This document shows positions 44,865-62,151 of a stretch of DNA of 64,000 nucleotides, in pieces. This stretch comes from Maribacter cobaltidurans (lineage in GTDB: Bacteria > Bacteroidota > Bacteroidia > Flavobacteriales > Flavobacteriaceae). The notes beneath the pieces were generated by a model. That model worked only from the letters and a program-made list of their open reading frames with translations. It had not been told where the DNA came from and made no database searches. Both the position numbers and the translations under genes were made by a program. The stretch covers positions 3,401,001 through 3,465,000 of the forward strand of contig NZ_CP022957.1 of assembly GCF_002269385.1 (NCBI RefSeq), in the 5' to 3' direction. Numbering within the stretch: the stretch's first letter is position 1; every line of letters begins with the position of its first letter.

Positions 44865-45059
44865 GCAGTACAACGTTTTAGCTAAGCGTAGTGCGGAGAT
44901 AAGGAAACATTTTCGTTTCCGTCTGCGCACGAAGCTAAAGCTTATTGTTTAGTTTTATTTTTTCTTTTCCAAAGCTAAATCCATAAGATTTAGCGACATT
45001 ATAAATATACATAGACCTTTCGTTTTAGCCCTAAAGTCCGCATTACGTTTAGGTTGTGT
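44865..45059. other. attC-like site 4 (long class)
   Basis: It opens GCAGTACAACG (mirrors GTTGTACTGC at 44037). GCTAAGCGTAGTGCGGA pairs with TCCGCATTACGTTTAGG near the far end; inner stems are formed around CCAAAGCTAAATCC and GATTTAGC. It ends at the IS1182-type copy B, next to GGTTGTGT. Confidence 0.65.
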
Positions 45060-46795
45060 GCCTGTTGCACAAGTTAAGAAAAAAACGGTCTTGATCATTG
45101 CCGTTCGGTAGATCGATCGTAACTTTAGGTATGCAGGGAAAAAAGGATTACCAGGAAAAACTGTTCGCACATTTCCAGTTGAGCGAGCGTATACCCGAGA
45201 ACAATTTCTACAGGCGTTTGAAAGGGGCTTTGGACCTTGACTTTCTCTACCCTTTGACCAAGGGGTATTATGGCGAAAGCGGCCAGAAGAGCATCGACCC
45301 GGTGGTCTTCTTCAAACTGTGCCTTGTGGGCTATCTGGAGAACATTATCAGCGACCGCAAGCTGATCGACCATTGTTCGATGCGCTTGGACATCCTTTAC
45401 TTCATCGGCTACGATATCGACGAGGAGCTGCCATGGCATTCTACGATAAGCCGTACGCGCCAACTGTTCCCGGAAAGTGTGTTCGAGGAAGTCTTCACCA
45501 AGGTTTTGGGTATGTGCGCGGACAAGGGTATGGTCAGCGGGCATACCCAGGCGATCGACAGTGCGCCGGTAAAGGCGAACGCTTCTATGGATACCTTGGA
45601 ACTGAAGGTACCGGAGGAAGAACTGCAAGAACACCTGCGGAAGGTGCGGGTCCTTAGTTCGATGGATAAAGAAGTGCCCCATCGCAAGAGCAAGGGCGAC
45701 AGGTCGGATAATGGGCAGCGCAGTATAAGTGCAAGTGAAAAGGAGCTAAATGCAATTAAGGGCCGCAACAAGAAGTGGGCGAAGGACCAGGACCAACGGC
45801 CGGGGGCCGGTAACAAGGGGGCCAAGTATACCAGTAACAAAACACATTACAGCCCCACGGACCCCGATGCGCGTATAAGCGTAAAGCCGGGCAAGGCGAG
45901 AAAGCTGAACTACCTGGGCCAGTTGAGCGTTGATACGGCCCACCACGTCATTACGGACATCAGGGCCTACCATGCGGACGGGAAGGACAATCAACACCTC
46001 CCGGACATCGTAAAGCGCGTAAAACGCAGGCTCTGGAAAGAAGGCCTGGTATGGGAGAACTGCGTGGCCGACACGGGGTACAGCAGTGGGGAGAACTACG
46101 CCTTTCTGGAAGCCCGGGGACTGAAGAGCTTCATCCCGCCCCATGGCACGTACAAGGGTGGTCCGGACGGGTTCACCTATAACAATACGGAAGATCATTA
46201 TATCTGTCCACAGGGCAAGGTGATACCATTTACCAAAGTGTTTTTGGATTACCGCACCAAGACAAAGAAGAAGGAGTACCGCGCAAGAAAGCATGTCTGC
46301 CTTGGCTGTCCCTTACGGGCACGGTGCCTGGGCAAAAGCGCACAGGAAAAGAAGTTCACCGTTACCTATTACCGGGCCGAGTACGAAAGGAACATTGCCC
46401 GGGTCGAGGGCCCACAGGGCAGGTATATGAAGGGCAAACGGCAGAGCACGGTCGAGCCCGTTTTCGGCACCCTGATAGAGTTTATGGGGCTCAGGAAGAT
46501 AAATACCATAGGATTGAAACAGGCCAACAAGGCGATGCACCTCTCGGCAATCGCGTACAACCTGAAAAAATACCTGAAATTCGACCAAAAACGTTCCATC
46601 CCGATAGCTATCGGGAGCGGGGCGGGGAAACTTGCTTTGTTATTTTTTATAAAAAACAGGTGCCAAGAACTTGAAAGAAAACTTGTAGGGTTGCCCAAAA
46701 ATCTAGATTGCCCATCGTCCTAAAAATAAAAAGCCCCTAAAAAGGGCTTAAAAGAGGTCTCTTTTTTGCTGTTCAAGGGCTTGCGCAACGGTTAC
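45060..46795 (+). mobile_element. IS1182-type element, copy B (1736 bp)
   Basis: Same ends as copy A (GCCTGTTGCAC and GCGCAACGGTTAC), but the flanks differ: TTGTGT at the left and CATTGT at the right, so no target duplication. One base fewer than A and C because of a deletion near the transposase stop. Confidence 0.88.
45131..46723 (+). CDS. IS1182-type transposase, copy B (diverged, altered C-terminus)
   Basis: 530 residues from the ATG at 45131. All DDE motifs of copy A are retained. Differences cluster: the segment SDNGQRSISASEKELNAIKG replaces SDKGQRSVTANANELSAIKG with many silent base changes, and TLIEFMG replaces TLTQFMG. A one-base deletion at the end changes the last residues to CPSS. 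Probably still functional. Confidence 0.88.
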   Translation: MQGKKDYQEKLFAHFQLSERIPENNFYRRLKGALDLDFLYPLTKGYYGESGQKSIDPVVFFKLCLVGYLENIISDRKLIDHCSMRLDILYFIGYDIDEELPWHSTISRTRQLFPESVFEEVFTKVLGMCADKGMVSGHTQAIDSAPVKANASMDTLELKVPEEELQEHLRKVRVLSSMDKEVPHRKSKGDRSDNGQRSISASEKELNAIKGRNKKWAKDQDQRPGAGNKGAKYTSNKTHYSPTDPDARISVKPGKARKLNYLGQLSVDTAHHVITDIRAYHADGKDNQHLPDIVKRVKRRLWKEGLVWENCVADTGYSSGENYAFLEARGLKSFIPPHGTYKGGPDGFTYNNTEDHYICPQGKVIPFTKVFLDYRTKTKKKEYRARKHVCLGCPLRARCLGKSAQEKKFTVTYYRAEYERNIARVEGPQGRYMKGKRQSTVEPVFGTLIEFMGLRKINTIGLKQANKAMHLSAIAYNLKKYLKFDQKRSIPIAIGSGAGKLALLFFIKNRCQELERKLVGLPKNLDCPSS

Positions 46796-46948
46796 CATTG
46801 TTGAACTAAACCTAAAGGTAGCTTCAGGAGTTATCTAAATCTCCATTCACTACCTTTAAGATGTATAAAACTAATATTTAGCAAATTATGAAAAAAAAGT
46901 AGTACCCTGATCGAACGAGCCTGTGAACGTGTTCCAGAATTCCAGGAA

Positions 46949-47788
46949 TTGTATCTCAAACTAAAACGTTCTGTTGAACTATCGGGCAAAAGCCAAAGCA
47001 CCCTGACCAACTATGCCCGCTGTCTTTCACACATAGCCCTGCATTTTAAGTGCAGTCCACTCGATCTGGATGAAGAACAGGTGCTGGATTATCTACATGT
47101 TTTAAAGTCCCGGCACAAGACCCCGTCGAGCAGCTTCTTCAAGCATACCGTTTATGGTCTGAGGTATGCCTACCGGATATCAAATCGTAAAGAGATGCAG
47201 GTAATGCTCCCCGCTATTGAGCGTCCCAAAAAACTCCCTGTAGTTTTAAGTTGTAGGGAAGTAAAGCAACTCTTAAAAGCCCCAAAACTACTGAAGCACC
47301 GTCTGGTATTGGCGCTGCTTTATGGCTGCGGACTGCGCTGTTTTGAACTGTGCAACCTACAGTTAAAAGATCTGGATTTTGATCGTATGATGCTTCACGT
47401 CCGCCAAGGCAAAGGCAGGAAAGATCGGTATGTACCCTTGTCGAGGATGCAGATCCGCGGACTTAAAACATATCTTGCGGCAGAAAATCCTTGCACCTGG
47501 TGCTTCACTGGGAACAATACCGAAGGGCGTCCAGTCCCGCTTTCTACCCAAGGGGTTCGCTGGATTGTACGGGAAGCCCGTAAACATAGTGGTATTCAAA
47601 AGGAAGTGACCACCCACAGCCTGCGCCACAGTTATGCTACCCACCTTCTGGAAATGGGCTTGGATATTATGAGTGTAAAGGACCTTTTGGGGCACGCAGA
47701 TATACAGACCACACTGACCTACCTTCACGTGGCACAACTGGGCAGGCAAAAGCCTTTCAGTCCACTGGATCGGCTCTACAAAGAGTAA
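46949..47788 (+). CDS. Tyrosine recombinase of the IS91-type element, copy 1
   Basis: 279 residues from a TTG at 46949. Core-binding domain SQSTLTNYARCLSHIALHFK; catalytic residues Arg in LLYGCGLRCFELCNLQLKDL (reads G-C-G-L-R), Lys in GKGRKDRYVPL, H-x-x-R as THSLRHSYATHLLEMG, His/Trp position as LLGHADIQTT and Tyr in LTYLHV. The open frame continues upstream past the TTG. A sensible N-terminus (SSTLIERACERVPEFQEL) would start at the ATG at 46888 but is out of frame by one base in a run of eight A. Phage_int family; not an integron integrase. Confidence 0.85.
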   Translation: MYLKLKRSVELSGKSQSTLTNYARCLSHIALHFKCSPLDLDEEQVLDYLHVLKSRHKTPSSSFFKHTVYGLRYAYRISNRKEMQVMLPAIERPKKLPVVLSCREVKQLLKAPKLLKHRLVLALLYGCGLRCFELCNLQLKDLDFDRMMLHVRQGKGRKDRYVPLSRMQIRGLKTYLAAENPCTWCFTGNNTEGRPVPLSTQGVRWIVREARKHSGIQKEVTTHSLRHSYATHLLEMGLDIMSVKDLLGHADIQTTLTYLHVAQLGRQKPFSPLDRLYKE

Positions 47789-48918
47789 TGGCATCCGCTG
47801 CTCACGAAGTGGCCCAGGTATTAAATCGCAACAGGGAGTCTTTAGCAGACTGTTGTGCCACCAGCTGGCAACTAAGGACCCTGCACGCCCTGCGCAAATG
47901 TCGTACGGCTGCCCTGGGCGGTCACATTGACCACTGCACGAATCCATCCTGTAATACCTTGCACCTGAGCTACAACAGTTGCCGCAACCGGCATTGCCCA
48001 AAGTGTCAGGGGCACAAAAGGGAACAATGGATCAGGGCACGGGAAGAAGAGCTCTTGAACGTTCCTTACTTCCACGTGGTATTTACCCTGCCTTCAGAAC
48101 TCAACCGCCTGTGCCTGTACGAACCCAAACTGCTGTATGGCCTGCTGTTCAAAACTTCATGGGAAGTCATAGCGGGGTTTGCTTCCAATCCTAAGTTTTT
48201 AGGTGCCGGTCCCGGGATGATCGCCATCCTGCATACCTGGGGACAGAACCTGTCCCTGCATCCGCACTTGCATTGTATCGTGCCCGGTGGTGGGGCAACC
48301 AAAAGTGGTAAGTGGAAACCTGCCCGGAACAAGGGGAAATACCTGTTCCCGGTCAAGGCCATGAGCAAGGTATTCCGTGCCCGCTTTGTTGCAGGGTTAC
48401 GTAAAAAAATTAAAACAGAACAACCAGAGGCCCTTTACCAAAGCCTGTTCAAAAAAGAGTGGGTCGTCTATTGCAAGCGTCCGTTTTTAGGGCCACCTCA
48501 GGTAGTGGAATACCTTGGTCGCTATACCCATAAAATTGCGATCAGCAACCACCGAATCAAAAACCTGGATGACAGCGGCGTGGTGTTTTCGGTAAAAGAT
48601 TACCGCCACGGGGGAAACAAATCCCTGATGTACCTGAGCGATACTGAATTCATCAGGCGCTTTGCCCTGCACATACTCCCTAAGGGGTTTGTGCGCATCC
48701 GCCATTATGGGATATTAAGTGCTTACCATAAACGCAAAAGTCTTGACCACTTGGGTAAAACCCTGGGGAAGGTACAGCTCCAAGAAAAACCGCCCCTGCA
48801 ACACCGAATCTGCCCATCTTGTAAAAAGGGAGAACTGGTGACCCTGCATACGTTTACCGCACGGGGACCACCGGCACACTGGATCACAAAACTTAAAAAA
48901 TACACTAAAGCACAGTAA
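47788..48918 (+). CDS. IS91-family transposase, copy 1
   Basis: 376 residues. An N-terminal zinc-binding domain (CTNPSCNTLHLSYNSCRNRH, CPKC) is followed by the HUH motif in LHPHLHCIVPGGG (about residues 154-166) and the tyrosine region YLGRYTHKIAISNHRI of the Y2_Tnp family, which cleaves single-stranded DNA and drives rolling-circle transposition. It overlaps the recombinase gene by one base (TAATG), so the two are coupled. C-terminal zinc cluster CPSCKKGEL. Confidence 0.92.
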   Translation: MASAAHEVAQVLNRNRESLADCCATSWQLRTLHALRKCRTAALGGHIDHCTNPSCNTLHLSYNSCRNRHCPKCQGHKREQWIRAREEELLNVPYFHVVFTLPSELNRLCLYEPKLLYGLLFKTSWEVIAGFASNPKFLGAGPGMIAILHTWGQNLSLHPHLHCIVPGGGATKSGKWKPARNKGKYLFPVKAMSKVFRARFVAGLRKKIKTEQPEALYQSLFKKEWVVYCKRPFLGPPQVVEYLGRYTHKIAISNHRIKNLDDSGVVFSVKDYRHGGNKSLMYLSDTEFIRRFALHILPKGFVRIRHYGILSAYHKRKSLDHLGKTLGKVQLQEKPPLQHRICPSCKKGELVTLHTFTARGPPAHWITKLKKYTKAQ

Positions 48919-49210
48919 GAAAATAAACGCCCTTTGAACGGGATAGGGAAGCCTATGTCCGAAACCAAGCAAAAGCGGCCAAAATACCCCAAAAACAGGA
49001 GGTTCAATAGAATTTAAGAAGTGATGGACATACTCGGGAGAAAAACAAGACCTCCAAATCACTATACGGTTCAAGTGCAGACCTTAAATAACCCATCCTA
49101 AAACAGACCAATACCCATAGAAGGCTGACCGACAGAGAACCGGTTCAGTCAACACGACGTTCATGCTGGGTCGTACCGACCACACGAACGCTAGTTATTG
49201 TGCAACGTTT

Positions 49211-50591: not shown

Positions 50592-50618
50592 ATTGTAATG
50601 TTTGATGGGTGTCATAAT

Positions 50619-50811
50619 TGTGGCTAACGGTTGTGTATATGGCTCGTAGCGTGCAAATTAGAAAATTATTTTCGGATTAAGCACAAGCCAGATTTTTAAA
50701 TTTTACTATTTATCTTTTTTTATTGGAAATCGTCAAATTTAAAAATCTGGCGACTTACCAAATACGCCTTAAATTCGATTTAGCAACTTACTAGCTATGA
50801 GCTATATACGT
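50619..50811. other. attC-like site 7 (long class)
   Basis: It opens TGTGGCTAACGG (mirrors GTTAGCCACA at 50037). Outer arms TATATGGCTCGTAGCGTGC and GCTATGAGCTATATACG; inner stem GCCAGATTTTTAAATTT with AAATTTAAAAATCTGGC. It ends directly at IS110 copy 1. Confidence 0.7.
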
Positions 50812-50860
50812 CTTAAGTTTGATTCTCTATAAATTGATTGTATAAATCAGAAAGAACAAA

Positions 50861-50988
50861 AGAGAGAATTAAGGTTACTATACACGGTGAAGCTTTAGAC
50901 TTCGACAACATTGATAATCCTCTCTCTTTTACTACTTAAATCACGTTCAGTTCTGTGAGACCTAGATCTCGTTTTCAAGTTGTTGTGA
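50861..50988 (+). ncRNA. Candidate bridge RNA of IS110 copy 1
   Basis: Two stem-internal-loop-hairpin modules. Module 1 (50861-50927): an outer stem with AGAGAG/CTCTCT and ATTA/TAAT, left loop strand GGTTACTATACACGGT, apical hairpin GAAG/CTTC (50889-50903), right loop strand GACAACA. The left strand copies the attC sequence CTATACACGG beside the insertion point and the right strand contains the complement of TGTT. Module 2 (50941-50988): outer TCAC/GTGA, left strand TTCAGTTCT, apical GAGA/TCTC. CAGTTCT equals the element's right end. This is the layout of target- and donor-binding loops known for IS621-type bridge RNAs. Folded by eye only. Confidence 0.6.
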
Positions 50989-51023
50989 GCAGAAGTAGCC
51001 AGTTCTTTCATAAAACATTCGTT

Positions 51024-51995
51024 ATGAATAAATATAAAGAAACTTTTGGAGTCGACATCAGTAAGGATGTCTTTGATGTACATGGTAGTAACATTGGTCA
51101 CAGCCAGTATAAGAACGATGAAACGGGATTCAGGAAATACCTTAAGGAATTGCCCCAAGGTTCATTGGTGGTTATGGAAGCTACCGGTTATTATCATTAT
51201 AGACTTGCACAGTTTCTTTACAAAAACGGAGTAATCGTTTCTGTTGTAAATCCATTGTCCATAAAGCGTTTCATACAAATGAAACTGGCCAAGGTAAAGA
51301 CGGACAAAAGTGATGCAAAGGCTATTTGTGAATACGCTTTGTCCAATGATGTTCCACTCTACAATTCCTTGACGGATACCCAGAGTGAATGTTTACAGTT
51401 GTTCCGGTTATTGGACACCTATTTAAAACAACGTACCGCAACTAAGAACAAGATACATGGAGAAGCTGTTCTGGGTATTCCCTCAAAGTTTGTCCATCGT
51501 TCCTTGGTGCGTAACAAGAAGCAGCTTGATAAGGAGGTGATAGCCATCGAATCAAAAATCCTTTCCTTGGTAAAAGAAGACCAACAAGAGCAATTGACCT
51601 TAATCACCAGTATACCGGGAATAGGTCAAAAGACCGCATTGTTCTTGATAGTTGTGACGGATGGTTTTTCCAAGTTCGAGAATGCATCACAGCTCTGTAG
51701 TTATGTCGGAATTACCCCAACGATCAGAGAATCGGGGAGCAGCGTTAGAGGTCGTGCACGGATAAGCAAAGTGGGCAATAGAAAGCTACGTAATCTTTTG
51801 TTCCTATGTTCCTTTACCGCCTGCAAGCACAACAAGGCATGTAAGGAGGTATATGAGCGAATCGTGAACAAGGGGAAGAGCAAGAAACTGGCATTGATAG
51901 CTGTAGCCAACAAGCTTCTTAAACAGAGTTTTGCAATCGCCAGATCCGGATTGCCCTATGATGAGGGTTTTGTCTCTGTTCTGACTAGAAGGTAG
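51024..51995 (+). CDS. IS110-family transposase, copy 1
   Basis: 323 residues from the ATG at 51024 (MNKYKETFGVDISKDVFDVH); an upstream in-frame start would overlap the guide-RNA region and is rejected. The RuvC-like DEDD domain shows Asp in FGVDISKDVFD, Glu in LVVMEATGYYHY, and Asp residues in KTDKSDAKAICEYA; the C-terminal Transposase_20 domain has ITSIPGIGQKTALFLIVVTD with the catalytic Ser in GSSVRGRARISKVGN. The enzyme recombines DNA guided by a bridge RNA in characterised members. Identical to copy 2. Confidence 0.93.
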   Translation: MNKYKETFGVDISKDVFDVHGSNIGHSQYKNDETGFRKYLKELPQGSLVVMEATGYYHYRLAQFLYKNGVIVSVVNPLSIKRFIQMKLAKVKTDKSDAKAICEYALSNDVPLYNSLTDTQSECLQLFRLLDTYLKQRTATKNKIHGEAVLGIPSKFVHRSLVRNKKQLDKEVIAIESKILSLVKEDQQEQLTLITSIPGIGQKTALFLIVVTDGFSKFENASQLCSYVGITPTIRESGSSVRGRARISKVGNRKLRNLLFLCSFTACKHNKACKEVYERIVNKGKSKKLALIAVANKLLKQSFAIARSGLPYDEGFVSVLTRR

Positions 51996-52255
51996 AATGA
52001 AAGTAAATGATTTTTTTGACCATAATCCTTACCTATGGGTTGTGGTAGAGGATAACTATGTTTCAAATTTAATGCGGAAAAGAGTTGTTTTTTAGCTCAG
52101 TTCTTTGTTGAACTAAACCTAAAGGTAGCTTCAGGAGTTATCTAAATCTCCATTCACTACCTTTAAGATGTATAAAACTAATATTTAGCAAATTATGAAA
52201 AAAAAGTAGTACCCTGATCGAACGAGCCTGTGAACGTGTTCCAGAATTCCAGGAA

Positions 52256-53095
52256 TTGTATCTCAAACTAAAACGTTCTGTTGAACTATCGGGCAAAAGC
52301 CAAAGCACCCTGACCAACTATGCCCGCTGTCTTTCACACATAGCCCTGCATTTTAAGTGCAGTCCACTCGATCTGGATGAAGAACAGGTGCTGGATTATC
52401 TACATGTTTTAAAGTCCCGGCACAAGACCCCGTCGAGCAGCTTCTTCAAGCATACCGTTTATGGTCTGAGGTATGCCTACCGGATATCAAATCGTAAAGA
52501 GATGCAGGTAATGCTCCCCGCTATTGAGCGTCCCAAAAAACTCCCTGTAGTTTTAAGTTGTAGGGAAGTAAAGCAACTCTTAAAAGCCCCAAAACTACTG
52601 AAGCACCGTCTGGTATTGGCGCTGCTTTATGGCTGCGGACTGCGCTGTTTTGAACTGTGCAACCTACAGTTAAAAGATCTGGATTTTGATCGTATGATGC
52701 TTCACGTCCGCCAAGGCAAAGGCAGGAAAGATCGGTATGTACCCTTGTCGAGGATGCAGATCCGCGGACTTAAAACATATCTTGCGGCAGAAAATCCTTG
52801 CACCTGGTGCTTCACTGGGAACAATACCGAAGGGCGTCCAGTCCCGCTTTCTACCCAAGGGGTTCGCTGGATTGTACGGGAAGCCCGTAAACATAGTGGT
52901 ATTCAAAAGGAAGTGACCACCCACAGCCTGCGCCACAGTTATGCTACCCACCTTCTGGAAATGGGCTTGGATATTATGAGTGTAAAGGACCTTTTGGGGC
53001 ACGCAGATATACAGACCACACTGACCTACCTTCACGTGGCACAACTGGGCAGGCAAAAGCCTTTCAGTCCACTGGATCGGCTCTACAAAGAGTAA
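52256..53095 (+). CDS. Tyrosine recombinase of the IS91-type element, copy 2
   Basis: 279 residues, same sequence as copy 1, including the H-x-x-R motif THSLRHSYATH and the nucleophile Tyr in LTYLHV. The same eight-A run (52198-52205) separates the ATG at 52195 from the reading frame, so the frame break is shared by both copies and is not a single-read error. Confidence 0.85.
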   Translation: MYLKLKRSVELSGKSQSTLTNYARCLSHIALHFKCSPLDLDEEQVLDYLHVLKSRHKTPSSSFFKHTVYGLRYAYRISNRKEMQVMLPAIERPKKLPVVLSCREVKQLLKAPKLLKHRLVLALLYGCGLRCFELCNLQLKDLDFDRMMLHVRQGKGRKDRYVPLSRMQIRGLKTYLAAENPCTWCFTGNNTEGRPVPLSTQGVRWIVREARKHSGIQKEVTTHSLRHSYATHLLEMGLDIMSVKDLLGHADIQTTLTYLHVAQLGRQKPFSPLDRLYKE

Positions 53096-54225
53096 TGGCA
53101 TCCGCTGCTCACGAAGTGGCCCAGGTATTAAATCGCAACAGGGAGTCTTTAGCAGACTGTTGTGCCACCAGCTGGCAACTAAGGACCCTGCACGCCCTGC
53201 GCAAATGTCGTACGGCTGCCCTGGGCGGTCACATTGACCACTGCACGAATCCATCCTGTAATACCTTGCACCTGAGCTACAACAGTTGCCGCAACCGGCA
53301 TTGCCCAAAGTGTCAGGGGCACAAAAGGGAACAATGGATCAGGGCACGGGAAGAAGAGCTCTTGAACGTTCCTTACTTCCACGTGGTATTTACCCTGCCT
53401 TCAGAACTCAACCGCCTGTGCCTGTACGAACCCAAACTGCTGTATGGCCTGCTGTTCAAAACTTCATGGGAAGTCATAGCGGGGTTTGCTTCCAATCCTA
53501 AGTTTTTAGGTGCCGGTCCCGGGATGATCGCCATCCTGCATACCTGGGGACAGAACCTGTCCCTGCATCCGCACTTGCATTGTATCGTGCCCGGTGGTGG
53601 GGCAACCAAAAGTGGTAAGTGGAAACCTGCCCGGAACAAGGGGAAATACCTGTTCCCGGTCAAGGCCATGAGCAAGGTATTCCGTGCCCGCTTTGTTGCA
53701 GGGTTACGTAAAAAAATTAAAACAGAACAACCAGAGGCCCTTTACCAAAGCCTGTTCAAAAAAGAGTGGGTCGTCTATTGCAAGCGTCCGTTTTTAGGGC
53801 CACCTCAGGTAGTGGAATACCTTGGTCGCTATACCCATAAAATTGCGATCAGCAACCACCGAATCAAAAACCTGGATGACAGCGGCGTGGTGTTTTCGGT
53901 AAAAGATTACCGCCACGGGGGAAACAAATCCCTGATGTACCTGAGCGATACTGAATTCATCAGGCGCTTTGCCCTGCACATACTCCCTAAGGGGTTTGTG
54001 CGCATCCGCCATTATGGGATATTAAGTGCTTACCATAAACGCAAAAGTCTTGACCACTTGGGTAAAACCCTGGGGAAGGTACAGCTCCAAGAAAAACCGC
54101 CCCTGCAACACCGAATCTGCCCATCTTGTAAAAAGGGAGAACTGGTGACCCTGCATACGTTTACCGCACGGGGACCACCGGCACACTGGATCACAAAACT
54201 TAAAAAATACACTAAAGCACAGTAA
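53095..54225 (+). CDS. IS91-family transposase, copy 2
   Basis: 376 residues, same as copy 1: zinc-binding N-terminus, HUH motif LHPHLHCIVPGGG and Y2_Tnp region YLGRYTHKIAISNHRI. It overlaps the recombinase gene by one base. Confidence 0.92.
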   Translation: MASAAHEVAQVLNRNRESLADCCATSWQLRTLHALRKCRTAALGGHIDHCTNPSCNTLHLSYNSCRNRHCPKCQGHKREQWIRAREEELLNVPYFHVVFTLPSELNRLCLYEPKLLYGLLFKTSWEVIAGFASNPKFLGAGPGMIAILHTWGQNLSLHPHLHCIVPGGGATKSGKWKPARNKGKYLFPVKAMSKVFRARFVAGLRKKIKTEQPEALYQSLFKKEWVVYCKRPFLGPPQVVEYLGRYTHKIAISNHRIKNLDDSGVVFSVKDYRHGGNKSLMYLSDTEFIRRFALHILPKGFVRIRHYGILSAYHKRKSLDHLGKTLGKVQLQEKPPLQHRICPSCKKGELVTLHTFTARGPPAHWITKLKKYTKAQ

Positions 54226-54519
54226 GAAAATAAACGCCCTTTGAACGGGATAGGGAAGCCTATGTCCGAAACCAAGCAAAAGCGGCCAAAATACCCCAAA
54301 AACAGGAGGTTCAATAGAATTTAAGAAGTGATGGACATACTCGGGAGAAAAACAAGACCTCCAAATCACTATACGGTTCAAGTGCAGACCTTAAATAACC
54401 CATCCTAAAACAGACCAATACCCATAGAAGGCTGACCGACAGAGAACCGGTTCAGTCAACACGACGTTCATGCTGGGTCGTACCGACCACACGAACGCTA
54501 GTTATTAGCAAAAGTTTTT

Positions 54520-55178: not shown

Positions 55179-55227
55179 CTTAAGTTTGATTCTCTATAAA
55201 TTGATTGTATAAATCAGAAAGAACAAA

Positions 55228-55355
55228 AGAGAGAATTAAGGTTACTATACACGGTGAAGCTTTAGACTTCGACAACATTGATAATCCTCTCTCTTTTACT
55301 ACTTAAATCACGTTCAGTTCTGTGAGACCTAGATCTCGTTTTCAAGTTGTTGTGA
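55228..55355 (+). ncRNA. Candidate bridge RNA of IS110 copy 2
   Basis: Same sequence as in copy 1. Here the guide strand and the actual left flank of the element agree over TATACACGG, and the uninterrupted neighbouring site 9 agrees over CTATACACGGTG. Confidence 0.6.
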
Positions 55356-55390
55356 GCAGAAGTAGCCAGTTCTTTCATAAAACATTCGTT

Positions 55391-56362
55391 ATGAATAAAT
55401 ATAAAGAAACTTTTGGAGTCGACATCAGTAAGGATGTCTTTGATGTACATGGTAGTAACATTGGTCACAGCCAGTATAAGAACGATGAAACGGGATTCAG
55501 GAAATACCTTAAGGAATTGCCCCAAGGTTCATTGGTGGTTATGGAAGCTACCGGTTATTATCATTATAGACTTGCACAGTTTCTTTACAAAAACGGAGTA
55601 ATCGTTTCTGTTGTAAATCCATTGTCCATAAAGCGTTTCATACAAATGAAACTGGCCAAGGTAAAGACGGACAAAAGTGATGCAAAGGCTATTTGTGAAT
55701 ACGCTTTGTCCAATGATGTTCCACTCTACAATTCCTTGACGGATACCCAGAGTGAATGTTTACAGTTGTTCCGGTTATTGGACACCTATTTAAAACAACG
55801 TACCGCAACTAAGAACAAGATACATGGAGAAGCTGTTCTGGGTATTCCCTCAAAGTTTGTCCATCGTTCCTTGGTGCGTAACAAGAAGCAGCTTGATAAG
55901 GAGGTGATAGCCATCGAATCAAAAATCCTTTCCTTGGTAAAAGAAGACCAACAAGAGCAATTGACCTTAATCACCAGTATACCGGGAATAGGTCAAAAGA
56001 CCGCATTGTTCTTGATAGTTGTGACGGATGGTTTTTCCAAGTTCGAGAATGCATCACAGCTCTGTAGTTATGTCGGAATTACCCCAACGATCAGAGAATC
56101 GGGGAGCAGCGTTAGAGGTCGTGCACGGATAAGCAAAGTGGGCAATAGAAAGCTACGTAATCTTTTGTTCCTATGTTCCTTTACCGCCTGCAAGCACAAC
56201 AAGGCATGTAAGGAGGTATATGAGCGAATCGTGAACAAGGGGAAGAGCAAGAAACTGGCATTGATAGCTGTAGCCAACAAGCTTCTTAAACAGAGTTTTG
56301 CAATCGCCAGATCCGGATTGCCCTATGATGAGGGTTTTGTCTCTGTTCTGACTAGAAGGTAG
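55391..56362 (+). CDS. IS110-family transposase, copy 2
   Basis: 323 residues from the ATG at 55391, the same protein as copy 1: DEDD residues in FGVDISKDVFD, VVMEATGYY and KTDKSDAKA, and the SIPGIGQKTAL and GSSVRGRARISKVGN motifs. Confidence 0.93.
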   Translation: MNKYKETFGVDISKDVFDVHGSNIGHSQYKNDETGFRKYLKELPQGSLVVMEATGYYHYRLAQFLYKNGVIVSVVNPLSIKRFIQMKLAKVKTDKSDAKAICEYALSNDVPLYNSLTDTQSECLQLFRLLDTYLKQRTATKNKIHGEAVLGIPSKFVHRSLVRNKKQLDKEVIAIESKILSLVKEDQQEQLTLITSIPGIGQKTALFLIVVTDGFSKFENASQLCSYVGITPTIRESGSSVRGRARISKVGNRKLRNLLFLCSFTACKHNKACKEVYERIVNKGKSKKLALIAVANKLLKQSFAIARSGLPYDEGFVSVLTRR

Positions 56363-56497
56363 AATGAAAGTAAATGATTTTTTTGACCATAATCCTTACC
56401 TATGGGTTGTGGTAGAGGATAACTATGTTTCAAATTTAATGCGGAAAAGAGTTGTTTTTTAGCTCAGTTCTTTGTTAGCAAATCGTTTTTTATTATT

Positions 56498-57136: not shown

Positions 57137-57159
57137 TCAGGATTGGTTTTTGTCAAATG

Positions 57160-57297
57160 TTTGCTAACGTGTTTGTGTATGGTTAGTTGCGTGTTTTAAG
57201 CACTAAATTTAGCAAATAAAAACGGAATAGAAAATCCGCGAGGATTTTCGTAAGTAGGCGAGAACCAAGCAATTAACTATACACGGTGTTCTATGCA
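57160..57297. other. attC-like site 9 (short class, uninterrupted)
   Basis: It opens TTTGCTAACG (mirrors GTTAGCAAA at 56474) and ends CGGTGTTCTATGCA. GTGTATGGTTAGTTGCGTG pairs with AAGCAATTAACTATACAC; the apex stem is AAAATCC-GCGA-GGATTTT. Best intact reference copy of the site in the window. Confidence 0.75.
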
Positions 57298-60265: not shown

Positions 60266-60393
60266 AATGCCAACGTTCTCGGCTATGAGTAGTTGCGTGG
60301 TTTAGCGATTAACTTTGCAAGTACACACCAAACTGAAAATCCGCGAGGATTTTCAGAAGTAGGCGGTAACAAGCAATTACTTATAGCCATTGT
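60266..60393. other. attC-like site 11 (short class)
   Basis: It opens AATGCCAACG (mirrors GTTGGCATT at 58525). GGCTATGAGTAGTTGCGTGG pairs with AAGCAATTACTTATAGCC; the apex is GAAAATCC-GCGA-GGATTTTC. IS1182-type copy C is inserted at its core; the core reappears at 62131-62143. Confidence 0.75.
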
Positions 60394-60464
60394 GCCTGTT
60401 GCACAAGTTAAGAAAAAAACGGTCTTGATCATTGCCGTTCGGTAGATCGATCGTAACTTTAGGT

Positions 60465-62075
60465 ATGCAGGGAAAAAAGGATTACCAGGAAAAACTGTTC
60501 GCACATTTCCAGTTGAGCGAGCGTATACCCGAGAACAATTTCTACAGGCGTTTGAAAGGGGCTTTGGACCTTGACTTTCTCTACCCTTTGACCAAGGGGT
60601 ATTATGGCGAAAGCGGCCAGAAGAGCATCGACCCGGTGGTCTTCTTCAAACTGTGCCTTGTGGGCTATCTGGAGAACATTATCAGCGACCGCAAGCTGAT
60701 CGACCATTGTTCGATGCGCTTGGACGTCCTTTACTTTATCGGCTACGATATCGACGAGGAGCTGCCATGGCATTCTACGATAAGCCGTACGCGCCAACTG
60801 TTCCCGGAAAGTGTGTTCGAGGAAGTCTTCACCAAGGTTTTGAGTATGTGCGCGGACAAGGGTATGGTCAGCGGGCATACCCAGGCGATCGACAGTGCGC
60901 CGGTAAAGGCGAACGCGAGCATGGATACCTTGGAACTGAAGGTACCGGAGGAAGAGCTGCAAGAACACCTGCGGAAGGTGCGGGTCCTTAGTTCGATGGA
61001 TAAAGAAGTGCCCCACCGCAAGAGCAAGGGCGACAGGTCCGATAAAGGACAACGAAGTGTTACCGCCAACGCCAATGAGCTCTCCGCCATAAAGGGCCGC
61101 AACAAGAAGTGGGCGAAGGACCAGGACCAACGGCCGGGGGCCGGTAACAAGGGGGCCAAGTATACCAGTAACAAAACACATTACAGCCCCACGGACCCCG
61201 ATGCGCGTATAAGCGTAAAACCGGGCAAGGCGAGAAAGCTGAACTACCTGGGCCAACTGAGCGTTGATACGGCCCACCACGTCATTACGGACATCAGGGC
61301 CTACCATGCGGACGGGAAGGACAACCAACACCTCCCGGACATCGTAAAGCGCGTAAAACGCAGGCTCTGGAAAGAAGGCCTGGTATGGGAGAACTGCGTA
61401 GCGGACACCGGTTACAGCAGTGGGGAGAACTACGCCTTTCTGGAAGCCCGGGGACTGAAGAGCTTCATCCCGCCCCATGGCACGTACAAGGGTGGTCCGG
61501 ACGGGTTCACCTATAACAATACGGAAGATCATTATATCTGTCCACAGGGCAAGGTGATACCATTTACCAAAGTGTTTTTGGATTACCGCACCAAGACAAA
61601 GAAGAAGGAGTACCGCGCAAGAAAGCATGTCTGCCTTGGCTGTCCCTTACGGGCACGGTGCCTGGGCAAAAGCGCACAGGAAAAGAAGTTCACCGTTACC
61701 TATTACCGGGCCGAGTACGAAAGGAACATTGCCCGGGTCGAGGGCCCACAGGGCAGGTATATGAAGGGCAAACGGCAGAGCACGGTCGAGCCCGTTTTCG
61801 GCACCCTTACCCAGTTTATGGGGCTCAGGAAGATAAATACCATAGGATTGAAACAGGCCAACAAGGCGATGCACCTCTCGGCAATCGCGTACAACCTGAA
61901 AAAATACCTGAAATTCGACCAAAAACGTTCCATCCCGATAGCTATCGGGAGCGGGGCGGGGAAACTTGCTTTGTTATTTTTTATAAAAAACGGGTGCCAA
62001 GAACTTGAAAGAACACTTGTAGGGTTGCCCAAAAATCTAGATTGCCCGGTCGTCCTAAAAATAAAAAGCCCCTAA
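60465..62075 (+). CDS. IS1182-type transposase, copy C
   Basis: 536 residues from the ATG at 60465, identical in protein sequence to copy A (DDE residues in QAIDSAPVKAN, CVADTGYSSGEN and STVEPVFGTLTQ). The identity with A and divergence from B suggest a recent transposition from the A lineage. Confidence 0.92.
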   Translation: MQGKKDYQEKLFAHFQLSERIPENNFYRRLKGALDLDFLYPLTKGYYGESGQKSIDPVVFFKLCLVGYLENIISDRKLIDHCSMRLDVLYFIGYDIDEELPWHSTISRTRQLFPESVFEEVFTKVLSMCADKGMVSGHTQAIDSAPVKANASMDTLELKVPEEELQEHLRKVRVLSSMDKEVPHRKSKGDRSDKGQRSVTANANELSAIKGRNKKWAKDQDQRPGAGNKGAKYTSNKTHYSPTDPDARISVKPGKARKLNYLGQLSVDTAHHVITDIRAYHADGKDNQHLPDIVKRVKRRLWKEGLVWENCVADTGYSSGENYAFLEARGLKSFIPPHGTYKGGPDGFTYNNTEDHYICPQGKVIPFTKVFLDYRTKTKKKEYRARKHVCLGCPLRARCLGKSAQEKKFTVTYYRAEYERNIARVEGPQGRYMKGKRQSTVEPVFGTLTQFMGLRKINTIGLKQANKAMHLSAIAYNLKKYLKFDQKRSIPIAIGSGAGKLALLFFIKNGCQELERTLVGLPKNLDCPVVLKIKSP

Positions 62076-62084
62076 AAAGGGCTT
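62066..62084 (+). terminator. Hairpin at the 3' end of IS1182-type copy C
   Basis: Same AAGCCC/GGGCTT hairpin as in copy A; it overlaps the transposase stop codon. Confidence 0.55.
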
Positions 62085-62151
62085 AAAAGAGGTCTCTTTT
62101 TTGCTGTTCAAGGGCTTGCGCAACGGTTACCATTGTTGTGGTGTCGTTTTT

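Follow-up and report, generated by a model that had tools for sequence, protein, structure and literature searches.

The window, the whole 64,000-nucleotide stretch analysed here (positions 3401001-3465000 of a 4.64 Mb source genome), carries two copies of an IS110-type insertion sequence lying in attC-like sites, and we consider it highly probable that the 5′ non-coding end of this element gives rise to a two-loop bridge RNA that guides the transposase to such sites. Very likely, this is a bridge-RNA (seekRNA) element of the IS110 type with a specialisation for the attC-like sites of flavobacterial cassette arrays. The evidence comes from the insertion sites, the element boundaries, the covariation between guides and flanks, the covariation within the RNA stems and a motif at the abutted element ends.

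Insertion sites and cassette context

50812..52105, + strand: IS110-type insertion sequence, copy 1; 1294 nt, CTTAAG...CAGTTCTT; ends set from eight identical copies with differing flanks and from uninterrupted sites
55179..56472, + strand: IS110-type insertion sequence, copy 2; identical to copy 1
51024..51995, + strand: IS110 transposase gene; 323 aa from the ATG at 51024; PF01548 E 1.4e-22, PF02371 E 4.9e-22
52085..52105, + strand: right end; its TTG is the -33 element of a promoter predicted at the circle junction
50802..50811, + strand: left half of the target of copy 1, CTATATACGT; attC partner arm upstream at ~50620-50650
52106..52110, + strand: TGTTG, the right target half for copy 1; an IS91-like element comes next
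57148..57290, - strand: attC-like site, uninterrupted; contains CTATACACGGTGTT, the exact target of the guide (guide match 10/10; target at 57277-57290)

Eight full copies of the element are present in the genome, with zero differences over the 1293 nt compared. The transposase has the DEDD/RuvC-like domain and the C-terminal serine domain of the IS110 family (IS110 type), and scores 216.7 bits against the NCBIfam model NF033542, ‘IS110 family RNA-guided transposase’ (cut-off 140). It matches the IS621 structure 8wt6 (E 3.3e-30), with the ESGSSVRG motif aligned, and is homologous to the ISCro4 recombinase (PDB 9t56; E 6.7e-29). The layout is also that of the IS110 type, with 212 nt of non-coding DNA upstream of the transposase gene against 110 nt downstream, and with co-varying structure in the upstream region.

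The right end of the element reads AGCTCAGTTCTT, with its last base at 52105. In two relatives (L094, 2600-2800; L095, 230-445) the left end abuts 12 nt of right-end sequence, giving AGCTCAGTTCTT|CTTAAG beside a single transposase gene, which agrees with the boundaries as set. This abutment may be either the leftover of a neighbour or an insertion next to an old right end. Three diverged remnants of element ends lie at genome positions 4241507, 1687888 and 2870230; the left-end remnant is preceded by ATACACCG, and both right-end remnants are followed by TGTT.

The left flanks of all eight copies read TATAYACNN, where NN is GG in four, GT in two, TT in one and AA in one, and all eight right flanks read TGTT. 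For the two copies in the window the flank pairs are CTATATACGT|...|TGTTG and TTATACACGG|...|TGTTA. Each of the eight insertions has a paired attC arm with AAC upstream, and the two flanks are the halves of a single arm of an attC-like site; these sites have outer cores of AAC and GTT and inner arms that pair, with cassettes in between. Sites of these families that are uninterrupted elsewhere in the genome have the sequence TATAYACNNTGTT. This sets the insertion point between NN and TGTT, and shows that the element inserts without duplicating any base of the target. The flanks of both copies and an attC-like target cut before TGTT had been put forward in the preliminary description, and both stand; the uninterrupted site, which it placed at 57279, is present as CTATACACGGTGTT, but at 57277-57290. 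The site folds as a long hairpin, with an energy z of -1.2 to -1.6.

Across the genome there are 15 uninterrupted matches to the TATAYACNNTGTT pattern, against five for a reversed control pattern. A partner arm is clear in five of the 15 (10-11 of 13), and of the rest, three are attC-like by eye and seven are not; this classification was made by hand, with L218 (partner score 9) taken as not attC, and L207, L216 and L217 (scores 6-7) as attC-like. Within the source genome's own array, the element's TATAYAC class makes up 8/8 of the occupied sites against ~5/17 of the empty ones (p 0.0016), a comparison that is indicative only, as the empty sites were counted by hand. Among the insertion sites of the wider family, an attC partner arm with AAC upstream is found at 85/119 loci, compared with 6.3% in shuffles, and 34/119 have no partner arm at the threshold used. 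The left flank of one locus (L044), TTAATAACTG, is not attC-like.

The sites thus have the AAC/GTT outer cores and the imperfect inverted inner arms of integron attC sites. It could still be argued that they belong to some other intergenic hairpin repeat, which the element would then target as such, given that no protein in the source genome matches above the curated IntI cut-off. A search of 60 relatives for IntI (TIGR02249) at E <= 1e-60 likewise returned nothing, although its control was also silent, so that this result is uninformative. We regard such a repeat as rather unlikely. Against it stand the AAC...GTT outer cores, the inner arms that pair across spacers of unequal length, a G|TT cassette boundary that matches the next cassette's own AAC core, and a duplicated cassette with an attI-like junction beside an Xer/IntI-like recombinase. 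This 371-aa recombinase (genome 3639193-3640305; L182 1225-2337) lies directly upstream of the attI-like junction, a tandem pair of identical cassettes and more attC-like sites. It scores 205.6 bits against the IntI cut-off of 265, and its alignment to the model is split into two parts (2-181 and 241-315) that leave out the middle. It is possible that proteins of this type form an integron integrase class without the IntI-specific insertion. Of 15 genomes selected for carrying the element family, 14 (the source genome included) have a relative of this recombinase at E <= 1e-40, and in 10 of these 14 it is no more than 30 kb from one of the listed element copies; random placement, the sole comparison made, gave a mean of 0.86 and a maximum of 5. 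A further Xer/IntI-like recombinase was noted at L019 12620-14065.

The attC-like target of the preliminary description is supported, and the sites form cassette arrays, whereas its term ‘integron’ needs care, since nothing in the genome exceeds the curated IntI cut-off. The passages of the IntegronFinder 2.0 report that concern Bacteroidetes proper name one complete integron, in Salinibacter, and so flavobacterial arrays may be under-described.

Crossover point and predicted bridge RNA

The element's own junctions read NN|CT and TT|TG and the empty sites NN|TG, and the donor (TT|CT) and the target (NN|TG) share no crossover dinucleotide. This differs from IS621, for which a conserved CT core inside all four guide pairings is described (PMC11208160, PMC11208158). 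A conventional shared CT core of the IS621 type, with attC variants TATACACNNCTTTGTT as the true targets, is formally consistent with the fact that both junctions carry CT (NN-CT-TAAG and AGTT-CT-TTGTT). We find it very unlikely, as no TATAYACNNCTTTGTT site occurs in the 464 kb of the source genome examined, on which ground a canonical CT core was rejected, whereas the same attC families do include TATAYACNNTGTT sites without an insertion. L094 and L095, which show AGTTCTT|CTTAAG with both ends complete, also speak against it. The IS621 logic that had been proposed for this element accordingly holds for the two-loop guide order and fails for a core dinucleotide common to target (TG) and donor (CT); the element is IS621-like in its working, but is not a strict copy of IS621.

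The features predicted in the upstream non-coding region are as follows.

50850..51009, + strand: predicted bridge RNA (seekRNA) region; closing stem of 50850-50857 with 51002-51009 around both loops
50858..50930, + strand: predicted target-binding loop module, from covariation in 84 family sequences
50878..50887, + strand: left target guide CTATACACGG, with TG next; matches the element's own flanks and co-varies in 121 loci
50904..50910, + strand: right target guide GACAACA, the complement of TGTTGTC; the right flank is TGTT in 97/103
50941..50988, + strand: predicted donor-binding loop module, from covariation in 84 family sequences
50948..50954, + strand: left donor guide CAGTTCT, the same as the element's right end
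50974..50979, + strand: predicted right donor guide TTCAAG, pairing with the left end CTTAAG with one mismatch and one wobble

In the alignment of 84 sequences the helices have 89-99.6% of their cells paired, and in six of the seven the number of two-sided changes exceeds that of all 500 shuffles. The counts, with the shuffle maximum in brackets, are 14 (7) for the closing stem, where 93.4% of cells are paired, 62 (26) for the target base stem, 36 (10) for the target apical hairpin, 81 (42) for the donor base stem and 19 (7) for the donor apical hairpin. The donor mid-stem, with seven changes and a shuffle maximum of seven, is no better than shuffles. When the helices are shifted by one or two columns, pairing falls to 16-70% of cells; the linker stem shifted by one column does give 28 two-sided changes against 24 in its own place, but with 25% of cells paired. 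The folding energy of the 168-nt region, on the other hand, is not significantly different from that of dinucleotide shuffles (z -0.92), with z -1.87 for the target loop and +1.12 for the donor loop taken separately. As the fold energy is ordinary, the structure rests on covariation and not on energy. A scan of 50600-52300 with Rfam returned microRNA models only, all below their gathering scores.

Covariation thus supports two modules, with the target loop 5′ of the donor loop. The two halves of the target are each matched by the target loop, in the order known from IS621. The donor guide CAGTTCT equals the right end, and the left-end guide of the window's own element has one mismatch. In two relatives both partners have changed from CAGTTCT, the donor guide and the right end each reading CAATTCA (L169, L170); the right donor guide is AAAGG with left end CCTAAG in L169, and TTAAG with left end CTTAAG in L170. 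The preliminary description had read two stem-loop modules with guide logic from the 5′ non-coding end, with CTATACACGG, GACAACA and CAGTTCT as the loop strands and the last identical to the right end. The three strands are found as it gave them, at 50878-50887, 50904-50910 and 50948-50954, and the two-loop logic gains its support from the stems that co-vary, the folding check having succeeded for six of the seven helices and not for energy or for a match in Rfam.

Palindromic inserts (e.g. TCCCGAAGCTTCGGGA) occur within the right target guide strand of L034, L048, L049, L100 and L155, and L155 has a further palindromic insert in the donor loop.

Guides and insertion sites across the family

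Family loci were drawn from the best 80 of 133 relatives, in genomes that are mostly Flavobacteriaceae, and from 397 further Flavobacteriaceae genomes, of which 95 have a homologous transposase (E <= 1e-30). From 185 tblastn matches, 20 that did not begin at the N-terminus were removed, leaving 165 distinct starts; removal of 18 exact duplicates and of 21 without a recognisable left end left 126. Five of these were dropped (L053, an old copy, and L081, L120, L148 and L176), giving 121 loci, with the eight copies of the source genome included. Loci with misplaced guides (L070, L156), a one-base shift (L108) or abutted ends (L094, L095) were kept despite lowering the score. The guide was taken as 10 nt at a fixed place, and compared with the last 10 nt of the element's own left flank.

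Guide and flank match on average at 7.42 of 10 positions, against 6.30 (sd 0.09) when permuted, a value reached in none of 10,000 permutations. With each of the 39 distinct guides counted once, the match is 7.17 against 5.53 (sd 0.18), again with 0/10,000. Permutation leaves part of the relatedness among elements in place. The excess persists within identity bands of >=80%, 70-79% and <70% (reached in 4, 0 and 0 of 10,000 permutations) and within the TATAYAC-type guides alone (0/10,000). The match is also confined to the proper register: for the 98 loci with a right flank it is 7.3 in register, and drops to 1.1-4.6 when the flank is shifted by one to four bases either way. The preliminary description had asked that collected insertions be compared with their guides, and left flanks do follow their own guides across the 39 guides.

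The signal is unevenly spread along the guide. Position -5 is strongest, matching in 95/121 loci against 46 expected, followed by position -8 (100 against 74); position -1 has little signal (42/121 against 33.8, sd 3.5), position -3 is nearly invariant, and at position -10 the match over the 121 loci is no better than in the permutations. In the source genome itself, CTATACACGG matches the left flanks of all eight copies at 7-9 of 10, and in four of the eight, position -5 is a T against the C of the guide. Right flanks read TGTT in 97/103 loci, a count that includes the right-end variant CAGTACTT. The six others are L045, L093, L110, L140, L151 and L173, the right end of the last being probably misassigned. 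Altered right guides are seen in L137, AAACA with flank TGTTT, and in L140, GAACT with flank AGTT.

Relatives with quite different left guides provide individual examples. In L127 the guide is CTATAGCCGT and the site is identical (10/10). Three Robertkochia loci (L096-L098) share the guide ATATAGCCAG, and lie at ATATAGCCGA twice and at ATATAGCCAG once (8, 8 and 10). The guide TGTTAAGCAT of L137 and L149 is found with sites GTTTAAGCAT and ATTTGAGCAT (8 and 7), the guide TCTCAAACAA of L170 and L171 with CCTCAAACAT and GCTCAAACAA (8 and 9), and the guide TTTATACCAA of L169 with ATTATACCAA (9). Poor matches also occur among the relatives, with 5/10 in L092 and 6/10 in both L037 and L033.

The least likely of the explanations considered, that the transposase itself recognises attC, by sequence or as a folded hairpin, and that the guide-like sequence is incidental, can draw on the contrast between the 8/8 own insertions that are attC-like and the 7/15 uninterrupted TATAYACNNTGTT sites that are non-attC and empty (hand classification; Fisher p 0.05), and on the long-hairpin folds of attC-like sites generally (z -1.2 to -2.0), but it is opposed by similar transposases with different guides that occupy different, guide-following sites, by several relatives (L137, L169-L171) at sites that are not attC-like by eye, and by a guide-flank match that exists only in register.

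In two further loci (L134, L146) the guide GGTCTACCGT is found with the flanks CATCTACCAT/CATCTACCAA, matching at 7 and 6 of 10. By eye, this flank resembles the terminus of a different transposable element that adjoins an attC core, and the guide may have followed that junction.

Relation to known elements and proposed mechanism

In outline the element resembles IS621, in its guide order, its upstream RNA and its insertion without duplication (PMC11208160, PMC11208158). Its closing stem around both loops is a feature that the passages describing IS621 do not mention, and its target is attC-like, whereas those passages name REP elements as targets of the family (PMC11208160, PMC11208158). It is also like ISEc21 as described, in the upstream non-coding region, the abutted circle ends, the insertion without duplication and the order within the RNA, where the bottom-strand match lies 5′ of the top-strand match; unlike our element, ISEc21 is directed to a conserved segment within transposase genes of the IS3 family, and its transposase has 358 aa (PMC11187229).

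That RNA-guided insertion sequences target attC is already known from the IS1111 type. For ISKpn4 and ISPst6, a seekRNA purified with the transposase is described, and the target is one end of certain integron attC sites; ISPa21, found in P. aeruginosa, is described as disrupting attC sites, and ISPa25 also belongs to this group. In the IS1111 type, as described, the RNA lies downstream of the transposase gene and the guide order is reversed, whereas here the RNA region is upstream, which places the element outside the IS1111-attC group.

The IS1111-attC group is known from Gammaproteobacteria. The present element differs in that it is of the IS110 type and is found in Flavobacteriaceae; guides in its family have been retuned naturally many times, donor and target have no core dinucleotide in common, and the targeting of attC probably had an independent origin here. 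In the literature covered (mostly open-access, without preprints) we found neither an account of IS110-type elements, with upstream RNA, that target attC, nor a description of guide-following insertions in flavobacterial arrays.

When the ends of the element are abutted in silico, they form TTG-N20-TAAGTTTG. The motif TTG-N20/21-TANNTT[TA]G is present at 81/103 such abutted junctions, and at 3/103 integrated left junctions. The usual promoter pattern of Bacteroidota is TTG, ~19 nt and TANNTTTG, and the predicted motif is of this type, in which it differs from IS621. A promoter at the abutted ends would fit with what is described for IS621 and ISEc21, both of which have promoters at the circle junction (PMC11208160, PMC11208158, PMC11187229).

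We therefore propose the following course of events, judged from the sequences. The ends CTTAAG and CAGTTCTT would abut in an excised circle, an end-to-end abutment being seen in the two relatives noted above, and the junction would create the TTG-N20-TAAGTTTG promoter, from which the RNA could be transcribed. The donor loop (CAGTTCT, TTCAAG) would hold both ends of the element, and the target loop would pair with an attC-like site. The transposase would then join target-left|CTTAAG and CAGTTCTT|TGTT without duplication of the target, leaving the junctions that are seen. Insertion splits the attC-like site, and the adjoining cassette is probably frozen as a result. Relatives with changed guides occupy other attC classes or other sites.

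We are evenly divided on a wider reading, in which an entire clade within the IS110 type would consist of RNA-guided parasites specialised on flavobacterial integron arrays, with guides retuned dozens of times to different attC families and neighbouring junctions, recombination needing nothing but RNA pairing and no core dinucleotide in common, and the arrays being run by an integrase without the IntI-specific insertion. If so, RNA-guided elements have come to use attC sites as a refuge on at least two occasions, in the IS1111 and the IS110 type, and insertion in attC would lock cassettes and so shape integron evolution. A crossover without a shared core dinucleotide, if real, would widen the target space of programmable recombinases. 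The pairing rules that bridge recombinases follow in AT-rich Bacteroidota could be learned directly from the 39 distinct natural guides and their insertion sites.

Other mobile elements were noted in the window. An IS91-like element, with a tyrosine recombinase and a Y2 transposase, is present at ~46800-49200 and at ~52107-54506, and its recombinase has matches at eight places in the genome. In the cases seen it starts at GTTG|AACTAAACC, adjoining an attC-like site, an IS110 right end or the end of another element. A DDE element (DUF772) lies at ~45042-46803 and at ~60376-62138; the copy at 60376 is preceded by CTTATAGCCATTGTG, which is part of an attC-like site, and has a right end similar to half an attC (GGTTACCATTGTTG).
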